DNA of 40,563 nt from Lewinellaceae bacterium (GTDB lineage: Bacteria; Bacteroidota; Bacteroidia; Chitinophagales; Saprospiraceae): NCBI GenBank assembly GCA_947459655.1, contig CANHEE010000011.1, positions 1-40,563 on the forward strand, given 5' to 3'. The notes beneath the pieces are model-generated. The model was not told the origin of the DNA, ran no database searches, and saw only the letters and a program-made list of their open reading frames with translations. The position numbers were made by a program, and so were the translations under genes. Positions 662 to 17,525 of the stretch are shown in pieces (position 1 is the first letter of the stretch; each line of letters starts with the position of its first letter).

Positions 662-1774
662 ATGTTTACTAATGTAGTCGGTCAGGCTGTTGCCAAGTCA
701 GTTCTACGGAATATGGTTTATTCCGATAGGATTCCACATGCACTGCTCATTCTGGGGAAAGAGGGATTTGGTGGGCTAGCCCTCGCGGAAGCATTCATAC
801 AATATATGTTGTGTGAAGACCGAAGCGAATATGATGCTTGCGGAAAATGCAGATCCTGCAGCAAAACCACAAAAATGGTTCACCCCGACGTACATTACTC
901 CTATCCGGTTTTCGGTCAGCATGTTGCTACGGACTTTGTTGCAGATTGGCGTAGAGAAGTGCTGAACAACCCCTACTTTACGGTGCAGCACTGGTTGAGC
1001 GTCATCAGCAAGGGTGAGAACAAGCAAGGCAACATCAACAAGGACGAGTGCCTTAGCATCATCAAAAAGTTGAGTCTGAAATCTTTTGAGGCCCCACTAA
1101 AAATTCTGTTGATGTGGTTGCCGGAATATCTCGGGAAGGAGGGCAACAGATTGCTTAAATTGATTGAAGAGCCCCCTGAAAACACGGTTTTCGTGTTGGT
1201 CGCGGAAAACCAGGAAGCCATACTCAGCACCATATTGTCGCGTTGTCAGCTGGTAAAACTGCCGCCGGTGAGCGAAAAAGATATCCGTGATGCATTGGTC
1301 AGTGGCTTTTCCCTTCCTGAAAAGGAGGCAGATACTATAGCGCTGCTTGCAGAAGGGAATTTTGCAGAATCAGTGAACCTTTCTCAATATACCGAGAACG
1401 ATAACAATGCGCTATTCATTGACTGGATGAGAAAATGTTATAACGGCAACGGAGTAGACATGGTCATGACTTCGGAAAAAATCGCCGCTGGCAGCAGGGA
1501 GGATCAGAAATTTTTTCTGCGTTATGGACTGCACTTCATGAGAGAACTGGCGATGATGCAGGCAGGCATCCCAAATGAGCGCATCAAATTGCAAGCGACG
1601 GCATTGGAAAGTGCTCAGAGAATGAGTAGAATAATCAATCTCGGGAAGATAGACCCCATTTCAGAACTATTCAATAAAGCAATTGCAGGAATTGAGCGAA
1701 ACGGTAACGTGAAAATGATATTTACAGACACCTCTATTTCCCTCAACAAAATAATGCGCCGGACAAATCCATAA
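662..1774 (+). CDS. holB: DNA polymerase III subunit delta'
   Basis: This is the non-catalytic clamp-loader subunit that works with delta and the tau/gamma ATPases to load the sliding clamp. The 370-residue product has the usual N-terminal AAA+ fold. The P-loop is degenerate (GKEGFGG, about 32-38), as expected for delta', which does not hydrolyse ATP. The zinc-module cysteines are visible at 51, 60, 63 and 66, and the SRC sensor motif at 193-195. The start is the ATG 4 bases after a strong minus-7 box. A DUF983 gene follows in the same direction. The delta subunit gene holA is also in this window, on the other strand at about 23 kb. Confidence 0.95.
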   Translation: MFTNVVGQAVAKSVLRNMVYSDRIPHALLILGKEGFGGLALAEAFIQYMLCEDRSEYDACGKCRSCSKTTKMVHPDVHYSYPVFGQHVATDFVADWRREVLNNPYFTVQHWLSVISKGENKQGNINKDECLSIIKKLSLKSFEAPLKILLMWLPEYLGKEGNRLLKLIEEPPENTVFVLVAENQEAILSTILSRCQLVKLPPVSEKDIRDALVSGFSLPEKEADTIALLAEGNFAESVNLSQYTENDNNALFIDWMRKCYNGNGVDMVMTSEKIAAGSREDQKFFLRYGLHFMRELAMMQAGIPNERIKLQATALESAQRMSRIINLGKIDPISELFNKAIAGIERNGNVKMIFTDTSISLNKIMRRTNP

Positions 1775-1836
1775 GACGTGTCTCATTATTGCCATTTGTG
1801 ATTGGTCATGGTGAAAAAAATCATTTATTTTGCAGG

Positions 1837-2256
1837 ATGTTAAAAAAAGGACAGAAACTATACAGCATCATTTACCAGAAATGTCCGCGCTGTCACGAGG
1901 GCGAATTGTGGAAAAAACCATTTTTCAGCTCCATCCCTCAACTGCTTCGTGGGAACTACCAAATGCATGAACGCTGCCCTGTATGCCAATTGAAATATGA
2001 ACAGGAGCCGGGGTTCTGGTGGGGAGCCATGTACATCGCATATGCCCTTAGTTCTGGTGCGCTTCTGATTACCGCTTTCTTGTGCAAATACTATTTTGAG
2101 ATGAATCTCACACAAACAATGCTGATTGTCCTGGCTGTTGCACTAATAGGTTTTCTATACAATGCGAGGGTAGCCAGGTCGGTTTACATCAATATTTTTG
2201 TAAAATACGAACCGCATTCTGTACAAACGAATCAAAATACAAGCAGTTCTGAATAA
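1837..2256 (+). CDS. DUF983 family membrane protein
   Basis: A 139-residue protein of the uncharacterised DUF983 family. An N-terminal CPRC motif (CPRCHEGELW) and a second CPVC about 40 residues later probably form a zinc knuckle. The family-typical GFWWGAMYIAYAL leads into two hydrophobic helices. I prefer the ATG at 1837 over an upstream in-frame TTG at 1789, because homologues start just before the first CxxC. It lies 62 bases after holB and 32 bases before the dioxygenase, so it is probably co-transcribed with one of them. The role of the family is not known. Confidence 0.85.
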   Translation: MLKKGQKLYSIIYQKCPRCHEGELWKKPFFSSIPQLLRGNYQMHERCPVCQLKYEQEPGFWWGAMYIAYALSSGALLITAFLCKYYFEMNLTQTMLIVLAVALIGFLYNARVARSVYINIFVKYEPHSVQTNQNTSSSE

Positions 2257-2288
2257 GTATAGTATCGGAGTCTAAAAAATCATGAATT

Positions 2289-3443
2289 ATGCACTATCAT
2301 AAGCTCGGGACAATCCCACACAAGCGACATACACAATTCAGAAAACCCAACGGGGAGCTTTACCATGAACAGCTGTTCTCGACCGAGGGTTTCAGCGACA
2401 ATTATGCCTTGCTTTACCACACCAATGCTCCTACTCAGATTGTTCAGGTAGGAGACCCGTTTGATGTTTCTCCACGGATTATATCCGACAAGCAACTCAA
2501 ACACCGCTGTCTGAAAGGGTTTGAGACCAAACCGGAAGATGATTTTCTTAAAAGCAGAAAACCGGTACTGGTCAATAGTGACTGCAAAATTATTTTCGCT
2601 GCGCCCAGACTGAGCATGACCGATTATTTTTACAAAAATGCAGATGCTGATGAGGTCATTTTTGTGCACGTGGGAAGCGGTACACTGAAAACCATGTACG
2701 GCAACATCGGATTTTCCTACGGAGACTACCTCGTTATACCTCGCGGAACCATCTACCAGATGCATTTTGACAGTACAGACAACAGGTTGCTGATTGTTGA
2801 GTCAACTAGTGCCATTACTACCCCAAAAAGGTACAGGAACGACCATGGGCAGCTTATGGAGCATTCTCCTTTCTGTGAAAGGGATATTCGAAAACCTGAG
2901 GTGCTGGAAACAAAGGACGAAAAGGGAGATTTTTTGCTGTATATCAAGAAGCAAGATATGATGTACCCTTACCACTATCTGTGCCATCCTTTTGATGTTA
3001 TCGGTTGGGATGGCTATGTTTATCCATATGCTTTTTCCATTCACGATTTTGAACCCATCACCGGAAGGGTACACCAGCCACCTCCCGTTCACCAGACTTT
3101 CCAGGCAAGGGGATTTGTCATTTGCTCTTTCGTGCCAAGACTATACGACTACCACCCGCTTTCCATTCCTGCTCCATACAACCACAGCAACATCGACTCA
3201 GATGAGGTACTTTATTACGTAGATGGTGATTTTATGAGCAGAAAACACGTTGAGAAGGGTATGATTACCCTACATCCCGGCGGCATTCCACATGGTCCGC
3301 ACCCGGGTACTGTAGAAAAGTCTATCGGAAAAAAAGAAACGTTGGAACTCGCAGTGATGGTTGATACGTTCCGACCATTACTGATGACGGAGTTCGCCTA
3401 TGCTGTAGAAGATCCGGACTATTACAAGAGCTGGATACGTTAA
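2289..3443 (+). CDS. hmgA: homogentisate 1,2-dioxygenase
   Basis: This iron enzyme opens the ring of homogentisate to maleylacetoacetate in tyrosine and phenylalanine breakdown. The 384-residue cupin-type protein carries the C-terminal metal region: His299 and Glu306 (around NHSNIDSDE) and HGPH at 335-338. It is shorter than the classical enzymes of about 430-440 residues, but I recall this shorter form from other Bacteroidota. The rest of the pathway is not adjacent. The FAH-family gene at 10.9 kb may or may not take part. The gene ends 14 bases from convergent pyrE. Naming rests on motif recognition, and a related ring-cleaving dioxygenase cannot be excluded. Confidence 0.85.
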   Translation: MHYHKLGTIPHKRHTQFRKPNGELYHEQLFSTEGFSDNYALLYHTNAPTQIVQVGDPFDVSPRIISDKQLKHRCLKGFETKPEDDFLKSRKPVLVNSDCKIIFAAPRLSMTDYFYKNADADEVIFVHVGSGTLKTMYGNIGFSYGDYLVIPRGTIYQMHFDSTDNRLLIVESTSAITTPKRYRNDHGQLMEHSPFCERDIRKPEVLETKDEKGDFLLYIKKQDMMYPYHYLCHPFDVIGWDGYVYPYAFSIHDFEPITGRVHQPPPVHQTFQARGFVICSFVPRLYDYHPLSIPAPYNHSNIDSDEVLYYVDGDFMSRKHVEKGMITLHPGGIPHGPHPGTVEKSIGKKETLELAVMVDTFRPLLMTEFAYAVEDPDYYKSWIR

Positions 3444-3457
3444 TTATCTGCAAACAA

Positions 3458-4096
3458 TCAGGTGGTAAACCAGTTTTTGGGATCTCTCCGCCAAATTTTA
3501 AGCGATTCAAGGTCTGAAGTGCTGATGTAATTCAGGTCCAATGCCTCTTGTAACAACCTGTCGTAATCGGCGAGGGTCTGCATGGGGATATTTCTACGCT
3601 CAAACAAATCTGATGCCTCCTGAAAGCCATAGGTGAATATGGCCAGTATCCCCACTACGGTAGCGCCTGCCTCCTGCAGTGCATCAATAGCCTTCATTGA
3701 GCTGCCGCCGGTAGAAATCAGGTCTTCAATGACGAGTACGCTTTGCCCCGGCTGCAATTCTCCTTCAATCTGGTTTTGCCGTCCGTGACTTTTAGGTTTG
3801 TCTCGCACGTACACGAAAGGCAGATTCAGCGCATCTGCAAGCAGTGCTCCGTGCGGAATACCTGCAGTAGCTACACCGGCAACCACATCAAACCCACCAA
3901 AAGCAAGAGCCATCTGCACAAAGCCGTTTTTCACCATATTTCTTGCCTCGGGATGTGAAAGGACGATTCTGTTGTCGCAGTATATCGGCGAGCGCATGCC
4001 CGATGCCCAAGTAAATGGATTTACAACACTGAGTTTTACGGCTTTTATTTTTAACAATTGCCGGGCAATCTGGCCGGAAAGCTCTGATGATGTCAT
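3458..4096 (-). CDS. pyrE: orotate phosphoribosyltransferase
   Basis: This enzyme joins orotate to PRPP to form OMP in de novo pyrimidine synthesis. The 212-residue product shows the type I phosphoribosyltransferase loop VIEDLISTGGSS (122-133). It also has the OPRTase-specific N-terminal SGMRSPIYCDNR (32-43) and the catalytic-loop basic stretch RDKPKSHGR (98-106). The length is normal. It is divergent from corA, and their control region contains a leftward TATCTTTG at 4219-4226. It is not next to other pyrimidine genes. Confidence 0.95.
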   Translation of the reverse strand: MTSSELSGQIARQLLKIKAVKLSVVNPFTWASGMRSPIYCDNRIVLSHPEARNMVKNGFVQMALAFGGFDVVAGVATAGIPHGALLADALNLPFVYVRDKPKSHGRQNQIEGELQPGQSVLVIEDLISTGGSSMKAIDALQEAGATVVGILAIFTYGFQEASDLFERRNIPMQTLADYDRLLQEALDLNYISTSDLESLKIWRRDPKNWFTT

Positions 4097-15138: not shown

Positions 15139-15516
15139 ATGTCTTCTTTGCACACCAGACTTTTTACACTTTTTTTTCTGGCATATTTAATGTCCTGTAA
15201 AGAGGGTACGGATGAACGCCACCAAATGATTGCCGGCACCTGGTATCTCAAAAATGCCCAAGCTGACGGAACTGAGACCAGGCGGCTTGACGGAACCATC
15301 TTCACTTTTGCAGATGGCCAAATCAACACCAACGTGCCTCAAATTGGAGCCGGAGCTTATCATTTTGAAAAAAACAAACTCGTCCAGAAGGGTGATTCAA
15401 AGATTACCTACACTATTGAGGCGCTGGACAATGATGCGCTGATTCTTTCTATGACCTTGAGAGACATTGATTTCCGCATGGAATTTGTCCGCGATGAGCC
15501 TGCGGCTGAGAACTGA
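15139..15516 (+). CDS. small lipoprotein, lipocalin-like
   Basis: A 125-residue predicted lipoprotein. The signal ends in YLMSC with Cys20 as the lipidation site, followed by KEGTDE. The mature part opens with IAGTWYLKNAQ. It continues as short strands (TIFTFADGQI, AYHFEKNKLV, YTIEALDNDALIL) in the manner of lipocalin-like DUF domains of Bacteroidota lipoproteins. No function can be assigned. It is divergent from the M1 peptidase and converges, 13 bases apart, with the aminotransferase. Confidence 0.7.
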   Translation: MSSLHTRLFTLFFLAYLMSCKEGTDERHQMIAGTWYLKNAQADGTETRRLDGTIFTFADGQINTNVPQIGAGAYHFEKNKLVQKGDSKITYTIEALDNDALILSMTLRDIDFRMEFVRDEPAAEN

Positions 15517-16719: not shown

Positions 16720-17361
16720 TTATCCCTTGTCCTTCATAAGTTGACTTTGCAATTTTGCGAGTTCATCCCAGTTGCCCTCATGCGCAAGAGCAGCCTGAAG
16801 TGACCAGCTGGCGGGATTGCGTTTCTGATAATTTTTTACAGTCGGCTCGAGGATTTCCTGAAGTCGATCGGTACCCGTTTCAGAGAGTTGCCTGTAGGTG
16901 AGTATTCCTGCGGCATGTAGCAACGTTTCAATTTTGGCACTTACACCAACTATTTTCTTTAGATCATCTTCGGCAGGTAGCTGTTCTACTGTTTGCTGCG
17001 CTTTCGCAGCGGGCTGTTTTTTGGGTTTTTCAATAACCAGCCGCGTTGGTTTTGATGCCTTTTCTTCCGGATCTGGAACAGCAGTCGCCGAGGTAGGATT
17101 TTTTTCTTGTTTCCTCTCCATCGCCGATTGATATTGCTCCTGACTGACCCTAACCAAGGCTTTCATTTCCTCTACTTTACTACTCAATTCTTTGACGATA
17201 CTGTTTTTCTCATCAAGTGAACTTTCTGCGTTTTGAAGCTTCATTCCCCAGAGTATAAACCCGCCAAAAATGCCTAGCAGGAAAGAAATAAACAGAAAAA
17301 ACAGAAGCCTGTTGCTGTCGGTACTGCCCCAATCTAGGAGGAAATTATCTAATGTGTTCAT
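16720..17361 (-). CDS. membrane-anchored coiled-coil/helix-hairpin-helix protein
   Basis: The 213-residue protein has one membrane helix (about 20-39) and a coiled coil (about 43-85). A Lys/Pro/Ala-rich linker follows, then a C-terminal domain (about 126-208) reading DDLKKIVGVSAKIETLL and ending AALAHEGNWDELAKLQ. This module resembles the C-terminal extension of ribosomal protein L21 in many Bacteroidota, which has a helix-hairpin-helix core. Here the hairpin glycine appears as Ser (GVS for GIG). ATG 17361 is preferred over TTG 17367. A 50-residue membrane peptide gene ends 11 bases upstream of it. Function unknown. Confidence 0.75.
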   Translation of the reverse strand: MNTLDNFLLDWGSTDSNRLLFFLFISFLLGIFGGFILWGMKLQNAESSLDEKNSIVKELSSKVEEMKALVRVSQEQYQSAMERKQEKNPTSATAVPDPEEKASKPTRLVIEKPKKQPAAKAQQTVEQLPAEDDLKKIVGVSAKIETLLHAAGILTYRQLSETGTDRLQEILEPTVKNYQKRNPASWSLQAALAHEGNWDELAKLQSQLMKDKG

Positions 17362-17372
17362 TGGCAAAGGAT

Positions 17373-17525
17373 TTATTGTCCGGTGCCGGAAACCGGCCCG
17401 ACAGGTGAAACAGAACTGGCTGGGGAAGCATTGCAGGAATGGCTAGCAATGTGGTGCACATAGTACCAGCGGGAAAAAAATGCCCAAAAAAGAAACAGCA
17501 GCAGGACCAATATCAGATTCCTCAT
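17373..17525 (-). CDS. small membrane protein, 50 aa
   Basis: An ATG-started 50-codon ORF encodes one hydrophobic helix (residues 4-17, LILVLLLFLFWAFF) followed by SRWYYVHHIASHSC and a Ser/Pro/Gly-rich tail. Eleven bases separate its stop from the ATG of the helix-hairpin-helix protein, so the two are probably one transcript. I recall similarly small one-helix proteins with a WYY...C segment in Bacteroidota, but I cannot name a family. Protein-like composition and tight spacing support it as real. Confidence 0.6.
   Translation of the reverse strand: MRNLILVLLLFLFWAFFSRWYYVHHIASHSCNASPASSVSPVGPVSGTGQ

Follow-up and report, generated by a model that had tools for sequence, protein, structure and literature searches.

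A Putative Reduced Copy of an OmpA/HhH Membrane Gene Pair in a Saprospiraceae Genome

Results and Discussion

The window, by which we mean the whole analysed stretch of 40,563 nucleotides from contig CANHEE010000011.1 of a Lewinellaceae bacterium (Saprospiraceae; assembly GCA_947459655.1), carries two adjacent genes on its minus strand that form a small membrane module. The upstream gene is an open reading frame of 50 amino acids (17373..17525, −) with a hydrophobic helix at residues 5–23 (17457..17513, −). The downstream gene (16720..17361, −) encodes a 213-residue protein with a membrane helix, a coiled coil and a helix-hairpin-helix (HhH) domain. For this gene we used the ATG at 17361 as the assumed start; the list of open reading frames has a TTG at 17367. 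Both frames are open, and 11 bases separate the 50-codon frame, with its WYY...C segment, from the ATG of the HhH frame, just as a preliminary description of the locus had stated. Promoter-like sites occur in the module region at chance level (2 found, 1.8 expected), and none of the nine neighbouring open reading frames that we scanned points to a respiratory or photosynthetic membrane complex. Close by, at 15139–15516 on the plus strand, lies a frame of 125 amino acids which has no Pfam match at 0.001 and whose start looks, by eye, like that of a secreted protein or a lipoprotein.

The identity of the small frame became clear from its relatives. Searched against 60 relatives, the 50-residue protein matched long frames at their N-terminal ends, in G011 (E 5.0e-6), G033 (5.5e-6), G036 (2.8e-5) and G028 (3.8e-4). 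At the matched loci an OmpA-family gene of about 290–315 codons lies directly upstream of a gene for a TM/coiled-coil/HhH protein; matches of the HhH search on the same contigs were known for G011, G033 and G028, and the neighbour in G036 was seen on reading the locus. Thirteen such OmpA partners align from residue 1 with the pattern MR...F.......RW..[VI]C.....C, and PF00691 is found in all 13 of them, in the first member as two stretches. The model of one OmpA partner (pLDDT 84.2, pTM 0.74) consists of an N-terminal helix and two α/β domains, and by structure comparison it resembles the peptidoglycan-binding domains of OprF, Pal and MotB.

A profile of these 13 OmpA partners (A1), from which the window sequence was excluded, matches the window's own genome at 17418–17525 with an E value of 1.3e-7 over model positions 1–35. 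The frame directly upstream of the HhH gene is hence homologous to the N-terminus of the OmpA partners, and its description as a tiny one-helix protein, as a class of its own, is wrong. The 15 other matches of A1 in this genome all fall into the C-terminal OmpA part (model 183–289) and belong to long frames of other proteins. By this search there is no full-length OmpA partner elsewhere in the window genome, and we rejected the idea that the OmpA domains were relocated, because the search returned only C-terminal OmpA domains of other proteins. The 50-residue protein itself gives no OmpA match (PF00691) at E ≤ 10; its sole Pfam match is TadE, with an E value of 0.04 that lies below the cut-off. 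Judged from these sequence comparisons, the small frame is the putative stump of an OmpA partner, namely its N-terminal membrane anchor, with both OmpA-like domains gone. An independent tiny protein was rejected as well, since the homologues are OmpA N-termini.

OmpA-family proteins with an inner-membrane anchor (PF00691), which are MotB-like in layout, possess one N-terminal helix in front of their OmpA domains, and so do the relatives of the stump. Compared with these anchored proteins, however, the window stump has no OmpA domain, its relatives carry tandem OmpA-like domains, and the partner in the module is an HhH protein and not a channel subunit. Our searches of an open-access library turned up no publication that deals with the OmpA/HhH pair; in the accessible part of PMC10434189, the two terms searched for stand in different table rows.

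How widely is the pair kept? With the full OmpA profile, 144 of 398 genomes of the family Saprospiraceae match at E ≤ 3.8e-49, while all 398 show some OmpA match at 1e-10 because the OmpA domain is common. We also used an anchor profile of 46 columns, window sequence included. At E ≤ 0.001 it matches, with the window's own included, 89 of 199 family genomes in 58 of 112 genera; the remaining 110 genomes give no anchor match at this threshold, showing that the pair is not universal even within the family. We read 63 family loci, of which 20 had been chosen partly for known nearby HhH matches and 43 from OmpA or anchor matches. An OmpA gene with its N-terminal half is present at 58 of them (16 from the first set, 42 from the second). 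The HhH gene follows directly after the OmpA gene on the same strand at 38 of the 42 loci picked by the OmpA or anchor match alone, and directly after it at 15 of the 16 picked partly for HhH, which gives 53 of 58 overall. The conserved small frame upstream of the HhH gene that the preliminary description had proposed to look for thus exists in part: an upstream partner is kept, but it is an OmpA gene, with a frame of 286–347 amino acids at 54 of the 58 loci.

Among the five misses, three loci (L056, L193 and L194) end 759, 209 and 1 bases downstream; at L197 the TM/coiled-coil partner is cut by the contig end, and at L200 a TM/coiled-coil partner of 200 amino acids has no HhH match, both partners being recognised by eye. 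The loci outside the 58, which have no OmpA gene bearing the N-terminal half, are L055, where an OmpA gene (model 92–290) lies directly before the HhH gene, L060 and L063, where an HhH gene is present with no OmpA match in the stretch read, L057, which has only the C-terminal OmpA domain, and L224, which is cut at the anchor.

We also looked beyond the family. In a sample of the order, the anchor is found at E ≤ 1e-4 in 16 of 149 genomes, five of them from the family, and in a sample of the phylum in 2 of 198, namely the window's own genome and one other of its family. Of 14 loci that we read from other families of the order, three of which were chosen for HhH matches, 8 show the OmpA-then-HhH order. 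At L242 the HhH gene precedes the anchor-bearing OmpA gene, and L240, L241, L246 and L248 have an anchor-bearing OmpA gene with no HhH match nearby. L251 carries a bL27-like/HhH fusion and no OmpA. In this fusion (L251:2580–3251, +; genome G054) the same HhH domain forms the C-terminal tail of the bL27-like protein, recognised as such by eye, which makes it a further ribosomal carrier of the tail beside L21 and S2. A scan of contigs with the window HhH protein found no same-genus relative, and a scan with the neighbouring aminotransferase (best 80 of 593 loci, the top one 65% identical) found no same-genus relative either and no anchor-bearing OmpA gene or HhH domain beside it. The best relatives of this aminotransferase come mostly from Saprospiraceae MAGs, in keeping with the family assumed here.

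Shortened OmpA partners are not confined to the window. Of the 199 family genomes, 89 match the anchor profile, and of these only the window's own has an anchor-only frame of about 50 amino acids; the two shorter anchor entries come from a fragment at a contig end (G218) and from a weak, partial match that contains a stop (G086). Partial truncations exist in G082, G118 and G208, with frames of 145, 188 and 190 amino acids that keep the anchor and the adjacent HhH gene. In these three genomes 4 to 50 bases lie between the frames, which leaves no room for a second, canonical OmpA domain. The OmpA profile matches G082 at positions 1–51 only, and for G118 the profile match extends a few positions beyond the stop. 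At L222 and L223 we also noted that the HhH partner stops after its first HhH type and is without the terminal L21-tail type; in both genomes the OmpA partner is without its second domain too, i.e. the shortening runs in parallel on both sides.

We next turn to the HhH protein. Its membrane helix comprises residues 19–37 (17251..17307, −) and is continued by a coiled coil at residues 38–87 (17101..17250, −), and profile matches, model and fold comparison place an HhH domain of the NuoE/L21-tail type at residues 128–211 (16729..16980, −). The AlphaFold2 model, calculated from a 14-row alignment (mean pLDDT 79.6, pTM 0.41), predicts a single long helix at residues 15–87 (block pLDDT 72–97), which unites the membrane helix and the coiled coil, then a linker at residues 89–127 with pLDDT below 50 and finally a compact helical domain from about residue 130 with a block pLDDT of at least 90 except for residues 171–180 (71) and the last three residues (63). 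Model and hydrophobicity together agree with the anatomy of one membrane helix, coiled coil and HhH domain that had been proposed for this protein.

Against NCBIfam the window HhH protein matches NuoE (E 2e-8), phasin PhaH (1.8e-6), L21 (2.1e-6 and 4e-6) and S2 (6.6e-5). These matches cover C-terminal model parts only, with scores far under the whole-protein cut-offs, as expected of a tail that is common to NuoE, L21, S2 and phasin. The L21 core domain is absent, the match covering model positions 116–203 of 223 with 27.7 bits against a cut-off of 193. In an alignment of 14 HhH homologues, window protein included (A2), the models of NuoE, L21 and phasin each match every one of the 14 members, with best E values (7.4e-32, 7.4e-23 and 4.4e-19) far lower than those of the window protein, and the S2 model matches 13. 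The proposed similarity to the L21 extensions is hence present, both in the window protein and throughout its homologues. Pfam HHH_5 is found at 0.001 in 12 of the 14 A2 members, the window protein not among them; the latter has no Pfam match at 0.001, and its weak matches, including TfoX_C, DUF4332 and HHH_5, have E values of 0.006–0.05 and lie below their cut-offs. By profile, the domain is the same as in the extensions of NuoE, L21, S2 and phasin (PRK12373, PRK12278, PRK12311 and PhaH). Unlike these proteins, the window HhH protein is membrane-anchored and has no enzyme, ribosomal or phasin core. At E ≤ 1, a profile search of the window's own genome brought up no second HhH protein of this type; its two additional matches fall in the coiled-coil part of the HhH profile.

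In a fold comparison with VIA-align, the modelled HhH domain is similar to the HhH domains of DNA polymerase theta (Z 9.4, rmsd 2.2, 67 residues aligned), RadA (Z 7.8) and NusA AR2 (Z 7.1–7.3); 8yy9 and 9wqv are not among the 50 matches listed. Foldseek with the HhH model against the PDB gave nothing below E 0.3. The predicted fold is one common to DNA-binding HhH domains, and such a likeness between a model and known structures would show no function.

A search of the PDB with the family profile led us to two proteins of membrane complexes, 9wqv_a (E 2.6e-23), which is named a complex I subunit, and 8yy9_O (E 1.3e-18). With the window HhH protein alone the E values are 0.0078 and 0.0012, respectively, and the matches of a longer homologue to both entries run through its first HhH type. 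Chain O of 8yy9 is protein-O, a membrane-anchored subunit of the Dinoroseobacter shibae RC-LH1 complex with such an HhH tail; its authors liken the C-terminal domain to the tails of NuoE and call the role of this domain obscure, and in the map protein-O is represented by residues 8–59 only, which are its membrane helices (PMC12079452, as far as accessible). The view that an HhH domain held at the membrane is undescribed was therefore too strong. Like the window HhH protein, protein-O combines an N-terminal membrane segment with a C-terminal HhH domain of the same kind. Differences are its two membrane helices and the course of its profile match, which is strongest across the first of the HhH types seen in the homologues, a type absent from the window protein. 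The accessible part of the source makes no mention of a coiled coil or an OmpA partner (PMC12079452). These nearest membrane relatives of the HhH domain give a hint of protein docking, and the present findings add to the hints that the NuoE/L21-tail domain is a general docking tail and not a ribosome part.

The charges around the membrane helices allow the topology to be predicted. Summed over 14 HhH sequences, the 15 residues before the helix contain 1 K/R and 33 D/E, and the 15 residues after it 64 K/R and 23 D/E. This K/R bias predicts that the HhH proteins are oriented N-out, C-in with a cytoplasmic HhH domain. The window HhH protein alone has little charge bias (1 K/R before the helix, 2 after), so that its predicted topology rests on the homologues. 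The OmpA anchors have 10 K/R before the helix and 25 K/R and 29 D/E after it, i.e. no inside-positive bias; we assign their OmpA domains to the periplasm, since peptidoglycan is what such domains bind. From these sequence features, the two proteins are predicted to span the inner membrane in opposite orientations.

Taking the data together, we regard the window module as probably a shortened version of an inner-membrane module of two genes. The intact pair could be a tether from wall to cytoplasm, and a deletion would have removed its OmpA domains here. Homology and gene order give strong support to the reduced-pair reading. The module would span the Saprospiraceae and some other families of the order. 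Its intact first gene would encode a protein with a short membrane helix at the N-terminus, followed by a CxxxxxC pair and by two OmpA-type peptidoglycan-binding domains in the periplasm; the product of the intact second gene would combine an oppositely oriented membrane helix with a coiled coil in the cytoplasm and at least one HhH domain. The two helices most likely associate in the membrane, and the pair may thereby link the wall with a partner in the cytoplasm, probably a protein, to which the HhH domain holds on. This tether proposal rests on gene order and predicted topology. In the window genome, a deletion would have taken both OmpA domains of the first gene and left the anchor, with the second gene still open. 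Such a copy would no longer grip the wall; it may represent a minimal complex in the membrane or else be in the process of being lost.

The state of the window copy bears on these two outcomes. In the stump, His stands in place of the first conserved Cys after the helix, and the second Cys is retained at a distance longer by one residue. The CxxxxxC pair, which 56 of 58 relatives have in exact form close to the anchor, is hence missing; it is also absent from the partners L061 and L193. In the HhH domain, the canonical hairpin G-hydrophobic-G-P is lost, as GVSA replaces GIGP, with the second Gly changed to Ser and the Pro to Ala. When 45 HhH domains are compared, 30 columns are at least 80% conserved, and the window domain departs at 9 of them; 37 of the 45 domains depart at 7 or fewer and 8 at 9 or more. 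This state fits relaxed constraint, as far as sequence can tell, and falls short of proving decay. Separately, we noted that the OmpA partner of L244, a locus from another family of the order, reads WWYYVHQI and has a His at the first Cys position like the window.

A possible, though in our opinion doubtful, alternative is that the window pair is a decaying relic, in which the OmpA gene no longer functions, only chance has preserved its first 50 codons, and constraint on the HhH gene is fading. The absence of both OmpA domains, the lost first Cys, the departures of the HhH domain, hairpin Gly and Pro included, and the lack of another HhH protein of this kind in the genome at E ≤ 1 speak for a relic, but both frames are still open across their 11-base junction, the HhH domain is still predicted with high block pLDDT outside residues 171–180 and the last three, and neither the missing Cys pair nor the degree of divergence is peculiar to the window, given L061, L193 and the 8 of 45 domains that are as divergent or more.

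We consider it very improbable that a mis-assembled draft contig accounts for the missing OmpA domains. The genome is in 175 contigs and so short an anchor frame inside a contig was seen only here among the genomes searched; an orphan first OmpA domain is not found, however, as the 16 own-genome profile matches consist of the stump and of C-terminal OmpA parts in long frames, and a biological change could leave an HhH partner like the one here, which is divergent and among the shorter ones. Very improbable, finally, is an independent tiny membrane protein next to a membrane-held HhH protein that binds nucleic acid or the ribosome, as the preliminary description had suggested, for although the modelled fold resembles the HhH domains of DNA-binding proteins and NusA and the tail also sits on ribosomal proteins, including the bL27-like protein of L251, the upstream homologues are OmpA proteins of about 300 amino acids, Foldseek has no match under E 0.3, likeness of fold does not demonstrate function, the window copy is without the conserved second hairpin Gly and Pro, and the tail sits on respiratory and photosynthetic membrane proteins as well, which leaves such binding unsupported.

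With the reduced-pair reading, an odd tiny frame becomes a readable case of domain loss, and it points to a conserved, apparently uncharacterised envelope module. One may speculate further that the intact pair is an undescribed tether of the order, whose HhH subunit keeps the chromosome or some machine of the cytoplasm at one set site on the wall, and that the wall arm has been lost repeatedly to give a minimal two-helix complex as found here; this extension we put forward only tentatively. If the tether were true, it would be a simple bacterial link from cell wall to cytoplasm. The intact pair is of more interest than the reduced module of the window. Four HhH domains, the most among the loci counted, are found in the HhH frame of L218 (genome G005; 1455–3473, −), and the HhH proteins at L050:5632–7632 (+) and L060:5536–6774 (−) contain long repetitive EKIVEVPVEKIVE-type stretches before the domain.
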